Below are positions 1,687 through 7,829 of a stretch of 7,829 nucleotides of DNA, piece after piece. The DNA lies in NCBI GenBank assembly GCA_027619145.1, contig JAQCGA010000171.1, positions 1 through 7,829 on the forward strand, in the 5' to 3' direction. Source of the DNA: a bacterium (GTDB taxonomy: Bacteria; Latescibacterota; UBA2968; GCA-2709665). Positions within the stretch are counted from its first letter, which is position 1; every line of letters begins with the position of its first letter. The notes under the pieces are model-generated. The model saw only the letters and a program-made list of their open reading frames with translations. It was not told the DNA's origin and ran no database searches. The position numbers and the translations under genes were made by a program.

Positions 1687-4600
1687 TCAATGGAGCACCT
1701 GGAAAACGGAGCCTGTGTCAGGGTATTTGGTAACCTCGATCCGAACGGGGAAGGCCTGTTTGAGTGCTTCTACGTGGGTGATGACCAGGATCTTCTCAAA
1801 ATCTTCGCTGATGGCCTGAATGGCTTCCACGAGATGCTCAAGTCCTTCTGCATCCTGGGTGCCGAACCCTTCGTCTATGACCAGGGTGCGGAGCCGTGTA
1901 CCGGCTCTGCGGGCTAGGAGTTTGGAGAGGGCGATGCGGAGAGAAAAATCCACACGAAAGGCCTCTCCGCCAGAATAAAGTTCGTAGCGCCGCTCGCCCA
2001 ATTCGTCGCTGATCTGGATATCCAGGGTTTCTCGAGAGCCCCCTTTTTTAAGGTCTTTGAGCGACTCCAGGGAGATCTGGGTGCGGTTCTCGGTAAGCCG
2101 GGACAGGATGCGGTTGGCCTCTTCTTCAATTTCCGGGATTGCCTGTTCAATGATGAGGGCCTGGATGCCATCTTTTCCGAAGGCTATGACCAGTTCCCGG
2201 TAGGTGCGAATTTCTTTTTCGGCACGGTTGAGGCGATCTTGTTCTTCCTGGCGAGCAGCTTCGAACGTTTCACATCTTTCCAACCGGGTCTGGAGGACGG
2301 CCCGTTTCTGAAAGAGGCGGTCGCGTTCGGCGCGCTGGTTTTTCAACTGTTCCTGATTTTGGGCAATCTGTTCTGGCAGAGATTCGGTTTCGCGTACGTC
2401 TGGCTCAAGTTCGCTCACGCGCAAGTTTACGCGTTCGAGCCGGGATGCGTTGTCCTGCAAGCGTTTGTTTGCGGCCTGGAGGCGAGTCTGCGCGCTGTCC
2501 ATCTCACGCTGGGCAGACTGGAGTCGTTCTTTGCGGCCTTCTACATCGGAAAGATTTTCCAGGGATTGGGTCACGTGCGTGTGTTGTTGCGCATCGTAGT
2601 TCAGGTTTTCCAATTCGAGCTGCAAGGCGGTCAGTTCTTCCTGGGCCGGGCGCGCGTAGCGTTTTTCGGTGAGCCAGGTGCGGGCGGTGTCGCGTTTGTC
2701 GCGGGCTTCCGGCAGAGTGTGTTGAATTTTTTCCCGTCGCGCTTCGGCTGTTTGCAACTGGGCTAGGCGCGTTTCTATCATTGAGAGGTCTTGCAGGCGT
2801 TTGCGCAAGATACGGTGGTTGTCCGGATCGTAGAGGAGCGCTTCCAGTTCTTTGCGAGCTTCTGCAAGAACCCGGGCTTCTTTGCTGTTGGTTTGGATTT
2901 CTGAGGCGCGGGTTTCCAGGCCGGCTACCTCCTGGTGTACACGTTCCAGATCCTGTGCGGCCTGTGCGGCCATTTTGAGGGCTGCTTCCGCTCGGGCTGC
3001 GTTGCTGGCAGCATCTTCGATGGCCGCCAGGCGGTTTTTGAGATCCTGATAATTTCGGCGGTAAATTTCTCGCTCGGATGCAGCGTTTTCAGCCTCCTCT
3101 TCCAGGGCCTGAATGCTGGCTTGCTGGCGTTGCATCTGTTCATCTAGCTGGACACGGACTTCCTCCCGGTGCTGGTCATCCAGGTTCGTGCCGCAAAGAG
3201 GGCATTGAGCCTCTTGAAGCTCCTCCAGTGCGGAGCGTTGCCTGGCCACTCGGTCTACTTCTTTTTGGAGCTCTTCGATGCGTTGACGTGCATTTTCTTC
3301 GCGAGATTTCAGAGAGGCACCTTCTTCGCGGACCCGGTCTCGCTGGCGTTCCAATTCTTGTGCCTGTTCGAGTCTCAGGTTCGCTTCTTGTGTATTTTTG
3401 AGAAGGGTGGGTTCTTCACCTGCGACCGCTTCCAGGTGCTGCTGCCTCTCTCTCCGGGTATTGAGCGCGACGTGAATGTCCGCCCGGGCCGCTTCGTAGG
3501 CGCGTTCCAGTTCGCGGATATGGCGCTCGAGGGTTTCTTTCTTTTCTCGTGTTTCCTCAAATTGGTGTTCTTGTTCCCGCGCCAGTGCGAGTTCTTTTGT
3601 TCCGGTTTCAATTTCTTCGCGACGGATGAGGATTTCATCAATTTCTCGGAGTTCTCTTTCTGCTTCAGAAACCCGCAGTTCCCACTCCCCCAGGCGGCGT
3701 TCCACTTCATGGCGTGCCTGGGTGATTTGTTTTTCCAGATCGGATTGCTGTTTTTCTAGGTCCCGGAGACGGTGTAGCTTTTGCTGCAGTTGGGTTTCTT
3801 CTCCCTGGAGGGTTTTGCGCTGTTCTACGGCGGCTAAGATCTCTTCTTTTTTTAATAAGATTTCGTGGCAGGCGTCCAATTCTTTCTGGGCAGTATTCGC
3901 TTCTGTTGTAGCGGTTTTTTGATCTGATTCCAGTCGCGTCCATTCTTCTTTCAAACCGGCCAATTCCTGTTCTTTTGCTTTTGTTCGGGCCTGGTTTTCT
4001 CGCAATGTTTCCAGGTGTCGTTCTGCTGCGGAGATCTCTTTTTCCAGAACTTCGAGGTGGGTGGAGGAGGTCTCCAGGTTTTTCAGAAGTTCGGGTTTTT
4101 CCGCTGCTGCCTGTTCGATTTCGGCCAGGTGCTGCCGGGCTTGCGAGGCATCTACTTCTGTTTCCTGGACGTGCGCACGCGCCAGGGCTGCCAGCTCGTC
4201 GTAGCGGGACAGGCCCAGGATTTCGGCCAGAATCGTTTTTCGTTCCCGGGCGTTGCGCCGGGTGAATTCATCTGCTTGCCCCTGCAAGATGAATGCGGAG
4301 TTGATAAATGTGTCGTAGCTCATGCGCAGCAGGCCATTGAGCCGGTCTTGTGTTTTGCGCAAGGAGCTCTCTTCGGTCAGGGCGCGGAAGGCTCCTGATT
4401 CTGGATCGAAGACCTGGAGTTCGAGTGAAGAGGACCCGGAGCGGGCGGTTTTGCGGTAGCTGCGGCTTACCCGGTACCGGTCATTTTCGAGGGCAAATAT
4501 GAAGACGACCTGCATTTCTGTCGCGCCAATCCGCAGAAGACCGTCATCGGGTTTGCGTTCGGCACTGCTTTTTCGGGCTTCTCCCCACAGTGCCCAGGTC

Positions 4601-4737
4601 ATGGCATCGAGCAGGGCGGATTTGCCGTGGCCGTTTTGGCCAGAGATACAGGCGACATGAAATGTGGTGAAGTCCAGAGCGGGTGGAGATTCCCCATAGC
4701 TGAGGAAATTGCTCAAAGAAAGTGAAATAGGAATCAT
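1687..4737 (-). CDS. sbcC: SbcC, Rad50-like ATPase subunit of the SbcCD nuclease
   Basis: This complete 1016-residue SMC-like ATPase powers the SbcCD complex, which tethers and processes double-strand ends and hairpins in the cytoplasm/nucleoid. The N-terminal ATPase half has Walker A GQNGHGKS (33-40) and the Q-loop in FILQGQ (Gln152). Heptad-rich charged coiled coil runs from about 180 to 830, broken by the zinc hook CPLC (Cys512, Cys515) almost exactly at mid-length; the hook dimerises two molecules through zinc. The C-terminal half has the signature SGGE (922-925), Walker B LVIDEG (Asp955, Glu956) and H-loop ITH (His988). All catalytic elements are intact. Length is typical of Bacteroidota/Chloroflexota-type SbcC and near E. 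coli SbcC (1048). The ATG overlaps the sbcD stop in ATGA (4734-4737), and GAAGG at 4747-4751 is nine bases upstream, so translation is probably coupled to the 3' part of sbcD. It ends in TGA. Confidence 0.97.
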   Translation of the reverse strand: MIPISLSLSNFLSYGESPPALDFTTFHVACISGQNGHGKSALLDAMTWALWGEARKSSAERKPDDGLLRIGATEMQVVFIFALENDRYRVSRSYRKTARSGSSSLELQVFDPESGAFRALTEESSLRKTQDRLNGLLRMSYDTFINSAFILQGQADEFTRRNARERKTILAEILGLSRYDELAALARAHVQETEVDASQARQHLAEIEQAAAEKPELLKNLETSSTHLEVLEKEISAAERHLETLRENQARTKAKEQELAGLKEEWTRLESDQKTATTEANTAQKELDACHEILLKKEEILAAVEQRKTLQGEETQLQQKLHRLRDLEKQQSDLEKQITQARHEVERRLGEWELRVSEAERELREIDEILIRREEIETGTKELALAREQEHQFEETREKKETLERHIRELERAYEAARADIHVALNTRRERQQHLEAVAGEEPTLLKNTQEANLRLEQAQELERQRDRVREEGASLKSREENARQRIEELQKEVDRVARQRSALEELQEAQCPLCGTNLDDQHREEVRVQLDEQMQRQQASIQALEEEAENAASEREIYRRNYQDLKNRLAAIEDAASNAARAEAALKMAAQAAQDLERVHQEVAGLETRASEIQTNSKEARVLAEARKELEALLYDPDNHRILRKRLQDLSMIETRLAQLQTAEARREKIQHTLPEARDKRDTARTWLTEKRYARPAQEELTALQLELENLNYDAQQHTHVTQSLENLSDVEGRKERLQSAQREMDSAQTRLQAANKRLQDNASRLERVNLRVSELEPDVRETESLPEQIAQNQEQLKNQRAERDRLFQKRAVLQTRLERCETFEAARQEEQDRLNRAEKEIRTYRELVIAFGKDGIQALIIEQAIPEIEEEANRILSRLTENRTQISLESLKDLKKGGSRETLDIQISDELGERRYELYSGGEAFRVDFSLRIALSKLLARRAGTRLRTLVIDEGFGTQDAEGLEHLVEAIQAISEDFEKILVITHVEALKQAFPVRIEVTKYPDTGSVFQVLH

Positions 4738-5261
4738 GTGGCCCGGCCTTCTTGAAGTTGTGCTTCCAGATAGGCGGCGCTTATTTGCAGATCTTCTTCG
4801 ATAGATTCTAATTCTGGATGGTTCTGGATGTAGGCGTGCAGCGCGTCTTTGAGGTGCATGTCTTCGGAGATTTCCGCCCGTCGCATGTGCGCGTGCGCTT
4901 TGGGTTTGGGGGCAATGGTGGCTACGAGGAACGCGCTGTCCAGGGCCTGTTTGACGGCCTTGAGGTCCACGGTGTCGTTCCGTTCTCCTTGAAGTTCATA
5001 GATCACGCGTACGACTGCATCTGTAAGCGTATGGCGCCCAATTTCTTCCAGGATGGCGGTGGTGGGGTCTTCGTCTTCGGAAACAAGAATACGCAGCGTT
5101 TTGAAAGGTCTTGCTGGTGTTCTGACAAAGGTATAGGATGTTTCACGGCGAAGGGGTGCCTCGTTGTCCTCAGTACCGTCCCGAATGGTGACCAGACATA
5201 CGCCACGGGGTTCGTTTTCTTCGCCGAAGTCAATGCGTTCCAGGCTGCCGGAATAGACCAC
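4734..5261 (-). CDS. sbcD: SbcD C-terminal fragment (capping domain), possible GTG restart
   Basis: From the GTG at 5259-5261 the frame encodes 175 residues corresponding to the SbcD capping domain and C-terminal tail, opening VVYSGSLERIDFGEE and ending ISAAYLEAQLQEGRAT. GGAGGG at 5271-5276 lies nine bases before the GTG, a spacing suited to ribosome binding, and the GTG is only 28 bases past the TAG, so reinitiation is feasible. The caveat is that GGAGGG encodes the conserved Gly-Gly of the family and could be there for that reason alone. It contains no catalytic motifs and overlaps the sbcC start in ATGA. Confidence 0.5.
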   Translation of the reverse strand: MVYSGSLERIDFGEENEPRGVCLVTIRDGTEDNEAPLRRETSYTFVRTPARPFKTLRILVSEDEDPTTAILEEIGRHTLTDAVVRVIYELQGERNDTVDLKAVKQALDSAFLVATIAPKPKAHAHMRRAEISEDMHLKDALHAYIQNHPELESIEEDLQISAAYLEAQLQEGRAT

Positions 5262-5278
5262 CGGCGGATGCCCTCCGG
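5261..5278 (-). other. GC-rich hairpin just downstream of the sbcD amber codon
   Basis: CCGGAGG (5272-5278) and CCGCCGG (5261-5267) pair by six G-C pairs with one A-G mismatch around the tetraloop GCAT. The stem begins 10 bases after the TAG. It would cover the GGAGGG motif and the first base of the GTG. It may stimulate readthrough, control a restart, or merely reflect the codons for the conserved Gly-Gly-His-Pro-Pro stretch. Confidence 0.35.
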
Positions 5279-5288
5279 CGTTGAGGTC

Positions 5289-5993
5289 CTAGAATTTATG
5301 GATGTGACCCAGGGCGATGTAGTCGAAGGCGGGATTGGCGAGGGTGCTGGTGAGGAAGACAGGATCTCGTCCGATAATGGCGGTTTGTTCGGAGCCGGAG
5401 AAGGTGGCATCTGCGGCGGCCACGTGGGCGGCCAGGATGGCGGGATAACGCGGGTCCACTCGGGCGGCCAGGCTTTCGATCATTTGCGCACCCAGGTCCT
5501 GGAGTTTTTCTACGGCTTCTTCCTGAGACAGGGTTTGATATTGGGTCCGGGAGAGCAGGCGGCTGCGGTGCAACCAGGGCAGGCAGGCGACCTGAACGGG
5601 TCCGGATTTTGTGCGAATGGTGAGTAAGCGTGGGTCCGAGGCAATGTATACCCCTTCTGTGCCCAGGGTGCCGAAGATGTCGATGGAGGAAGCTTTGCCG
5701 AAGGCGACGGGGCTGTCGTGGTTCCCGGTGATCATGACAATAGGGATGTGGGCCAGCATGCGGATGAGCGAGGCAAACTCGCGCTGGTGGGTGGGTGTGG
5801 GGTCGCAGGAGCGGTAGGCATCGCCAGAGAAGATGACCAGGTCCACTTCTTCTTTGAGGGCTTCTTCAAACGCGAAGCGTAGACTTTTAACGAAATCCTG
5901 GAGTCGGGTATGGAGGCCTGTTGCAGCGTCCAGACGGCCGTAGTTTTCGATGCCGATGTGGGTATCTGCAACGTGCAGAAATTTAATTTCCAT
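5289..5993 (-). CDS. sbcD: SbcD nuclease-domain fragment ending at the amber codon
   Basis: If TAG is read as stop, this makes a 234-residue protein holding the complete metallophosphoesterase core (motifs I to V, ending GHIHKF) but no capping domain. In Mre11/SbcD family members the capping and C-terminal parts contact DNA and the SbcC/Rad50 coiled-coil base, so this piece alone would be expected to bind SbcC poorly. A longer version beginning at TTG 6021-6023 would add ten residues (MSLPTADPSF) that lack family support. Confidence 0.7.
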   Translation of the reverse strand: MEIKFLHVADTHIGIENYGRLDAATGLHTRLQDFVKSLRFAFEEALKEEVDLVIFSGDAYRSCDPTPTHQREFASLIRMLAHIPIVMITGNHDSPVAFGKASSIDIFGTLGTEGVYIASDPRLLTIRTKSGPVQVACLPWLHRSRLLSRTQYQTLSQEEAVEKLQDLGAQMIESLAARVDPRYPAILAAHVAAADATFSGSEQTAIIGRDPVFLTSTLANPAFDYIALGHIHKF

Positions 5994-6078
5994 AAAAGAA
6001 GGGTCCGCCGTGGGGAGGGACAAAGGCGAGGTCTTAGGGCAAGAGGGCAGGTTGTAAGGAGGTCGAAACCTGAACAGA

Positions 6079-6108
6079 AATGTAGCCAGAAATGCCTGGA
6101 ATTGTCAA
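6079..6108 (-). promoter_or_regulatory. sbcD: Candidate promoter of the sbcDC operon
   Basis: A perfect TTGACA (6103-6108) is followed after 18 bases by TACATT (6079-6084), which continues as TACATTTC, one mismatch from the Bacteroidota -7 form TAnnTTTG. It lies in the 145-base gap between the HhH gene stop and the sbcD start, giving a leader of roughly 75-80 bases. An imperfect dyad, CCAG-6-CTGG (6086-6099), fills the spacer, and AGGT-TTCG-ACCT (6060-6071) lies near the expected transcription start. Either could be an operator, but both have only four-base arms. Confidence 0.45.
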
Positions 6109-6138
6109 GGAGATTCGAGGTATCCGTTACGGGATGGG

Positions 6139-7829
6139 TTACTCCAGTGAGCCCAGGTCTACCTGGAAGGACCAGGAAGAAGATACTCCCTCGGGGGTGC
6201 GTTTGAAAGAATACCGCCCAGAAAATGAAAAAACGGCTCCGGACCAGCTCAATCGGGTTCCGAAGGCCTGTCCGGAGCCGGAGAGGACTTGCAACCGGGA
6301 GCCACCCCACACATCGGGTTCAAACATGTAGATGCGGGCCTCGTATGCCGTGGTGTGGAAGCGAGTGAACCAGAGATCCAGACGCGGCCCAGAAGAACGC
6401 CCCAGACGCAGATCTGCCGCAGTAGCCGCACCAATTCCTCGCCGGGCCGGGGTGGCCCCCCGGGTGATTTCGGTCCAGGCCCGGATACGGAACTCGGGAG
6501 GGTGTAAGCTGTAGGCCACACGGTACCGTTTGCGGAGGCGAGGACCCGTACGGCTGGAAGTGGTCACGGTTTCTTGCTGTGTACCCAGGGTGAGATCCAG
6601 GTTCTGGTGGCGAGACAGGCGCTGAGTCATAGAGAAGGTGAAGCGTTCCCCCCGGGAAGGTAGTGGCGCATCGGTTTCGGGGAGCAGACGTCCGTGGCGG
6701 TCCAGGTCGAGTTGGATTCGGGTGCCCTTGCGTGGCGCCCAGGCGGCCCCGGCAAAGAGGCCCCATTCATTGTGCGGCCATCCGCTGTAGGCGGAGAAGG
6801 CGGCTGCGTGGGGGGCGTAATACGAGGGATCATACCGGCGGGCGAGGACGGTGAGACGGAGGGTATTGAACCGGAGGGTCGTACCGGACAGCCATGCGGT
6901 TTCCGGTCCGGGTGCGAGTTCGCCAAAGAGGGCAACGTTGCGCACTGAAAGGTTCCAATTGAGCCCGACCGGGGTCTGTTGTTGGCGGGGTGGACCGGAG
7001 GTGAGAACAGGGGCGGAAAAGGCGAGGTGGCACAGGGAGAGCCCCACCTTGCCAAAGGGCAGGCGGCTGGTAAGTCGCAGGCTGACGATACGTTCGGTAA
7101 GCGCGTGTTTTCGGCTTTTTTGCAAGGGGGAGACGTGTTCGCCTCCCCGCCGGATGGCGGCGTTCTCGGTACTGTCGGTGGCGGCATCCCAGGTGGCGCG
7201 GCCTGCAAAGGCGGACCAGGTGAGGAAGCCTGGGAGGCTTTCGAGATAGATTCCTCGAAGGGCGCCTTCTTCGGTGCTGGAGCGTGAACCGATGCGGCTG
7301 TTGCTGGACGGTCTGGCCCAGGCCAGGCCGGTGGCAGAACGGTCCTGGCGGCTGAAGAGCAGGCCCTGACCCATACCCGGCCGAAAGTCGCCGAGCAACA
7401 GGCGGTGCAGACCTGGAAGTGCAGACAGGAGGAGGTAGCCAGAAACGAAGTCGGCGATGCCGGATTCTTTCGGGTCGCGTTCGGTAAGTATCAAAGATTC
7501 GGTGTGGGCTCCAAGCCGGAATTCGGTGCGCTGATAAAGGCGCAGATTGGGCCAGGTGGACTTCAGGCCGGATGGGCGTGAGAGGCGGGTTCGGGTTTGG
7601 GCAAAGAAGCGGGGTTCTGTACGTGTGGTGAGATAGGGAGTGATGGCGTCGAAGGTGTCTGGAGGGATGATGCTACGCAGGGCGTTGAGGGTTTCGAACG
7701 GTCCGTGTTTTTTTCGGTAAGAAGTAATGAGGTGAGCGGTTTCGTGGGAGAGCCAGGGAAGATGTGCCAGGTCTTCTTCGGATGCGTGGTTGAGATCCAG
7801 GCGCAGGCCGTCTAGATCTTCGAGGGCGG
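6139..7829 (-). CDS. Helix-hairpin-helix protein with C-terminal barrel-like domain, N-terminus missing
   Basis: The frame is open from the right edge to TAA at 6139-6141, giving 563 codons with 562 complete residues in view; the start and any signal peptide lie outside. At 7681-7800 is a ComEA-like helix-hairpin-helix: LDLNHASEEDLAHLPWL, then ETAHLITSYRKKHGPFETL, followed by a second half-motif, PPDTFDAITPYL. Such motifs bind the DNA backbone non-specifically. The remaining ~450 residues are rich in alternating polar and aromatic or hydrophobic strands (for example RLLLGDFRPGMGQGLLFSRQ and RIQLDLDRHGRLL) with many arginines and glycines. They resemble the barrel-like C-terminus of Bacteroidota HhH proteins, where a G-D-F-x-x-x-x-G-Q-G-L motif recurs. 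I infer an envelope protein, perhaps outer membrane; its function in this family is not known to me. A TTG at 7492-7494 is an internal leucine, not the start. No terminator is visible before the sbcD promoter region. Confidence 0.85.
   Translation of the reverse strand, partial: ALEDLDGLRLDLNHASEEDLAHLPWLSHETAHLITSYRKKHGPFETLNALRSIIPPDTFDAITPYLTTRTEPRFFAQTRTRLSRPSGLKSTWPNLRLYQRTEFRLGAHTESLILTERDPKESGIADFVSGYLLLSALPGLHRLLLGDFRPGMGQGLLFSRQDRSATGLAWARPSSNSRIGSRSSTEEGALRGIYLESLPGFLTWSAFAGRATWDAATDSTENAAIRRGGEHVSPLQKSRKHALTERIVSLRLTSRLPFGKVGLSLCHLAFSAPVLTSGPPRQQQTPVGLNWNLSVRNVALFGELAPGPETAWLSGTTLRFNTLRLTVLARRYDPSYYAPHAAAFSAYSGWPHNEWGLFAGAAWAPRKGTRIQLDLDRHGRLLPETDAPLPSRGERFTFSMTQRLSRHQNLDLTLGTQQETVTTSSRTGPRLRKRYRVAYSLHPPEFRIRAWTEITRGATPARRGIGAATAADLRLGRSSGPRLDLWFTRFHTTAYEARIYMFEPDVWGGSRLQVLSGSGQAFGTRLSWSGAVFSFSGRYSFKRTPEGVSSSWSFQVDLGSLE

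Follow-up and report, generated by a model that had tools for sequence, protein, structure and literature searches.

An in-frame TAG at a conserved glutamine codon of an otherwise intact sbcD gene, possibly a very recent nonsense allele

Does a single TAG within the frame of an sbcD gene mark a broken gene, a stop codon that is read or bypassed, or an error in the assembly? The window (the whole 7829-base stretch of DNA that was analysed) holds five gene frames, all on the minus strand: a gene encoding a protein with an HHH motif (7827-6139, its 5' end lying beyond the window), sbcD, sbcC, a DUF4837 protein gene (1625-558) and a DUF502 protein gene (1-552, running off the start of the window). 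The sbcD frame extends from an ATG at 5993 to a TGA ending at 4734 and comprises 419 codons. Inspection of frames and ORFs placed the TAG at codon 235 (5291..5289), with the residues GHIHKF before it and DLNAGG after it. It is the sole internal stop across the five frames; the DUF502, DUF4837, sbcC and HHH-motif frames contain none, the first and last of these as far as they go before running off the window. Directly downstream lies sbcC (1687..4737), an open partner gene of 1016 aa that overlaps the sbcD stop as ATGA. An earlier note, made from the sequence alone, had described just this arrangement, with a TAG at codon 235 of an otherwise intact 419-codon sbcD, an ATGA overlap with an intact sbcC and no TAG inside the other four genes, and the frame check agreed with it on each count.

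The protein obtained by reading through the TAG is a member of the SbcD family, with a match to TIGR00619 (sbcd) of 139.9 bits (cut-off 77.65). Codons 1-234 alone (5292..5993), which form the metallophosphoesterase (nuclease) part up to GHIHKF, matched the same model at 116.2 bits, also above the cut-off, and PF00149 covers residues 3-233 of the read-through protein. The TIGR00619 match continues past the stop to residue 262. Taken alone, codons 236-419 matched only NF041030, weakly (27.2 bits, far below its cut-off). Together with the natural TGA these codons (4734..5288) would encode the end of the nuclease region and, beyond it, the presumed capping and Rad50/SbcC-binding regions, as family knowledge and the excerpted text of PMC7260605 place them. 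The window SbcC matched TIGR00618 over residues 1-1010 (1.7e-95), at 320.9 bits, below the model cut-off of 478.5. An SbcC match also follows sbcD in the relative loci L001-L012, and the gene order sbcD-sbcC-DUF4837 is common to the window and L001-L009. The window gene is thus homologous to the SbcD/Mre11 nucleases on both sides of the stop and, as in sbcDC operons, has sbcC immediately behind it; what sets it apart from the family is the TAG. Its nearest SbcD relatives among the matches listed, L001 (Candidatus Latescibacterota) and P0002, are both 81% identical to it, and it is on such relatives that we base the description of the window as Latescibacterota-like.

In an alignment of 48 rows, made up of the window protein and the 47 best-scoring of 4480 SbcD matches, the site of codon 235 is glutamine in all 47 other rows. 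At the DNA level, glutamine was likewise found in 56 of the 56 loci in which a tblastn match at E <= 1e-15 covered the codon (41 CAG and 15 CAA); another 22 of the 78 loci fell short of this condition. Comparison of relatives at this codon, which the earlier note had put forward as a check, therefore gave glutamine throughout, as its claim of a conserved glutamine had implied. More distant proteins can differ: the top PDB match (4o24/2q8u), from an organism that we take to be Thermotoga maritima, aligns an arginine at the site. The invariant columns of a 20-row alignment that includes the window contain D10, H12, D58, N91, H92, H190, H230 and H232, among others, and these residues presumably have a catalytic role. 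We also surveyed 64 genomes from the phylum to which L001 belongs. An SbcD match was present in 47 of them, and the 40 sbcD matches of full length were all free of premature stops; the single TAA flagged in this survey was the last codon of the matched stretch (414 of 414). The TAG thus interrupts a gene that is intact in its relatives, and it is neither an old shared feature nor a habit of the phylum.

An ageing nonsense pseudogene should show relaxed constraint beyond its stop, and this was largely missing here. Downstream of the TAG the window keeps every one of the 45 columns whose conservation in the other rows reaches 95%, a complete lack of deviation that 20 of the 47 other sequences share in the same leave-one-out count. 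Measured against the family majority, it has diverged 1.88 times as much downstream as upstream, which places it 23rd of 48. The sole contrary sign is a slight rise in pN: the downstream/upstream ratio was 1.59-2.33 in four pairs that include the window and 1.30-2.00 in six pairs that do not, and the values for window-L001 (2.20) and window-L002 (2.33) lie above all six. These raised ratios could hint at an older relaxation, although the upstream counts are small and the conserved columns untouched. Synonymous divergence from L001 is near saturation (dS 0.78 upstream of the TAG and 1.42 downstream). The 101.3 nonsynonymous sites in conserved columns and the 12.3 stop-making sites elsewhere are all unhit; by the rule of three, and with even mutation assumed, these counts make free downstream drift beyond about 0.026 substitutions per site unlikely. 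The downstream part has therefore kept its family character, as the earlier note had claimed, and its proposal that the stop is either very recent or tolerated fits the absence of decay. That absence leaves three possibilities, namely that the stop is very young, that it is absent from the cells, or that it is tolerated through some form of expression. As a pseudogene, the gene would be compatible with very recent loss only.

Complete constraint downstream would suit a TAG that is read as an amino acid, whether by a suppressor tRNA, by partial readthrough or in a code where TAG means glutamine. TAG also closes none of the four genes that end within the window, a number too small to be informative. 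Against such decoding, the five frames hold one TAG beside 130 glutamine codons (CAG and CAA together), RF1 scored over its cut-off in seven of seven relative genomes, and TAG terminates 11 of the 89 ORFs, mechanically chosen and each at least 200 aa long, that were taken from 11 relative loci. Pyrrolysyl-tRNA synthetase (PylS) was over its cut-off in none of the same seven genomes, with weak sub-threshold matches in two. A pattern for tRNAs with a CUA anticodon, which allowed short variable loops only and was run without a positive control, fitted 13 places in the seven genomes, compared with 19 for a reversed control. We discarded these places: seven of the 13 were out-of-register fits within tRNA-Arg(tct), and ARAGORN found no tRNA at the other six. 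A tRNA family search of these genomes returned 34-47 matches each, counted irrespective of anticodon, and there were no tRNA genes in the window or in L001-L010. The RNA around the stop showed no unusual structure, three folds being average (z 0.18, -0.22 and -0.29).

Known systems of stop-codon recoding (pyrrolysine at UAG, codes with TAG as glutamine, amber suppression) likewise place an in-frame TAG in a constrained gene, but the window has a single such site, and the machinery was not found in the seven relatives. Nor is sbcD a methylamine methyltransferase, the kind of gene named as a known pyrrolysine user in the excerpted text of PMC8318568; in that excerpt pyrrolysine is tied to Deltaproteobacteria bins, and both mentions of Latescibacteria merely list a bin. 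Genome-wide recoding was judged unlikely from the one TAG of the window together with the RF1, PylS and tRNA results in the relatives. A suppressor tRNA specific to this strain is possible. Taking all forms of decoding together, we regard it as very unlikely that this TAG is decoded into an amino acid.

The stop could also be tolerated if the ribosome ended at the TAG and reinitiated at the GTG at 5261, so that two pieces, a nuclease part of 234 aa and a C-terminal part of 175 aa, would assemble with SbcC. The positions make reinitiation mechanically possible: this GTG (Val245, 5259..5261) lies 30 nt past the TAG and is the sole in-frame start among the 49 codons from the TAG on, and a GGAGG resembling a ribosome-binding site (5272..5276) lies 10 nt ahead of it. 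The intact downstream constraint is in keeping with this. However, Val245 is shared by all 48 rows of the alignment and the GGAGG belongs to Gly-Gly codons, so neither element need have arisen for reinitiation. The cut also falls inside the TIGR00619 match and inside the matches to solved SbcD structures (the best of which reach residues 275-276), and the stretch from the cut to residue 262 or 275-276 presumably belongs to the nuclease core. All 40 full-length matches in the phylum run through this place uncut. The protein database does enter the window sbcD as two proteins, one of 234 aa (P0058) and one of 175 aa (P0242).

Out of 77 matched proteins we examined 14 stand-alone C-terminal pieces, including the one from the window; among them P0253 has almost the same starting point. 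It comes from another lineage, has 178 aa, begins with MPPVVYSGS and lies on a 715-kb contig; the full-length proteins nearest to it in the set compared are P0109 (62%) and P0095 (63%, Planctomycetota). P0253 may be a split gene, which would speak for the two-piece arrangement, or a frameshift product, as P0290 (described below) appears to be, which would speak against it. Its locus was not found at E <= 1e-45 in 392 genomes from the phylum that includes L059, an empty answer that is not informative, and a search of five relative genomes gave an uncut relative in four. We consider it improbable that the window gene is expressed in two pieces, and a little more improbable still that there is a lineage which makes SbcD as two polypeptides from one gene by coupled reinitiation at GTG, with P0253 as a second case. 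In such a lineage a UAG behind the final metal-binding motif would close the nuclease piece, and the GTG would open the piece for capping and SbcC binding. A tolerated stop would mean that an Mre11-type nuclease can function although severed directly behind the final metal-binding motif; to our knowledge this would be new for the family.

The explanation that we prefer, at about an even chance, is a very recent nonsense allele at the glutamine codon of sbcD in a Latescibacterota-like bacterium with the standard code. With this one codon changed, translation would end after residue 234. The truncated product would keep the metal-binding motifs and lose the end of the nuclease region and the capping and SbcC-binding regions; with these missing, cells that carry the allele would have a crippled SbcCD nuclease or none. 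The stop, the conserved glutamine and the intact downstream part are seen directly in the sequences; the presence of the TAG in cells as well as in the assembly, standard decoding in this organism and the loss of SbcCD function are what we infer. We count in favour of a nonsense allele the glutamine in every aligned protein (47/47) and every covering locus (56/56), the intact downstream part, the lack of cut genes in the phylum (0/40), the presence of RF1 over cut-off in all seven relatives and the use of TAG as a stop in the ORFs of relatives. Counted against it are the somewhat higher pN ratios of the window and, at the population level, the distance even to the nearest SbcD (81% identity). 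A further point against it is that one base in one 7829-base contig has equally the look of a consensus error.

A single transition-type stop is an ordinary event when, as here, the window holds no second instance and the relatives yielded no recoding machinery. Recent nonsense pseudogene alleles are a recognised class, and like them the window has one stop and no further decay, with no difference seen as far as the sequence goes.

An error, whether in the consensus, the base calling or the assembly, or a read from a minority strain at one base of this metagenome contig, would leave the sbcD of the organism intact. We hold this to be a serious contender, somewhat short of an even chance; it ranks close behind a nonsense allele, and the weighting of the two is a judgement and not a measurement. 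The source is a lone contig, the truncated protein P0058 is known from one member on one contig, and the sbcD frame is open elsewhere and undecayed downstream. There are 199 codons in the window that lie one transition of the C-to-T/G-to-A class away from a stop, so one wrong base easily creates one. Other SbcD and SbcC genes from metagenomes also look broken. In P0290 the first 21 residues are unmatched, after which it is 93% identical to its longer relative P0293, and in P0245 the first 8 residues are unmatched, after which it is 87% identical to its longer relative P0005; judged by these alignments, both C-terminal SbcD pieces look like frame-broken genes. In the SbcC gene of G041 (L152, G041:C207:5300-8600), one of the 64 genomes surveyed above, the homology shifts frame near residue 610-620, the first frame being open for 1065 codons. 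On the other side, the window gives no further sign of error, its other four gene frames being without internal stops. We also looked at cluster sizes for traces of sister strains (2 members in the cluster of the window's own SbcC, 3 in that of the C-terminal piece and 1 in that of the N-terminal piece) and dropped this line, since alternative gene starts or pieces at contig edges could explain the sizes.

The explanations listed in the earlier note thus divide: a fresh nonsense change or an error is favoured, while suppression or recoding is disfavoured, no recoding machinery having been found in the seven relatives. In either of the two favoured cases, the TAG would have little importance beyond annotation.

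Wider searches gave no near match to the window gene in plasmid records. Among viral contigs there were 11 loci with SbcD relatives at 27-50% identity, none of them close. Within the titles and abstract openings returned, the literature on sbcD nonsense mutation held nothing bearing on this case, nor did that on stop codon reassignment among the matches listed, and we found none on pseudogenes in metagenome-assembled genomes.

Several minor observations were made along the way. SbcC diverges much faster than SbcD between the nearest relatives (60% versus 81% identity). The gap between the HHH-motif gene and sbcD is about 145 bases in the window (5993-6139); among relatives, L002-L008 have roughly 3 kb between the end of the HHH-motif match and sbcD, L009 has roughly 2 kb and L010 roughly 260 bases. 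Upstream of sbcD lies a sigma-70-like site on the minus strand (6108-6079, 10 of 12 positions), for which the chance expectation in the scanned stretch is 0.6. The TTG start of the DUF502 gene is doubtful, as homology starts at residue 53 with L001 and at residue 57 with L012. Finally, L140-L144, on contigs listed as viral (IMG/VR), carry SbcD relatives that are 47-50% identical to that of the window.
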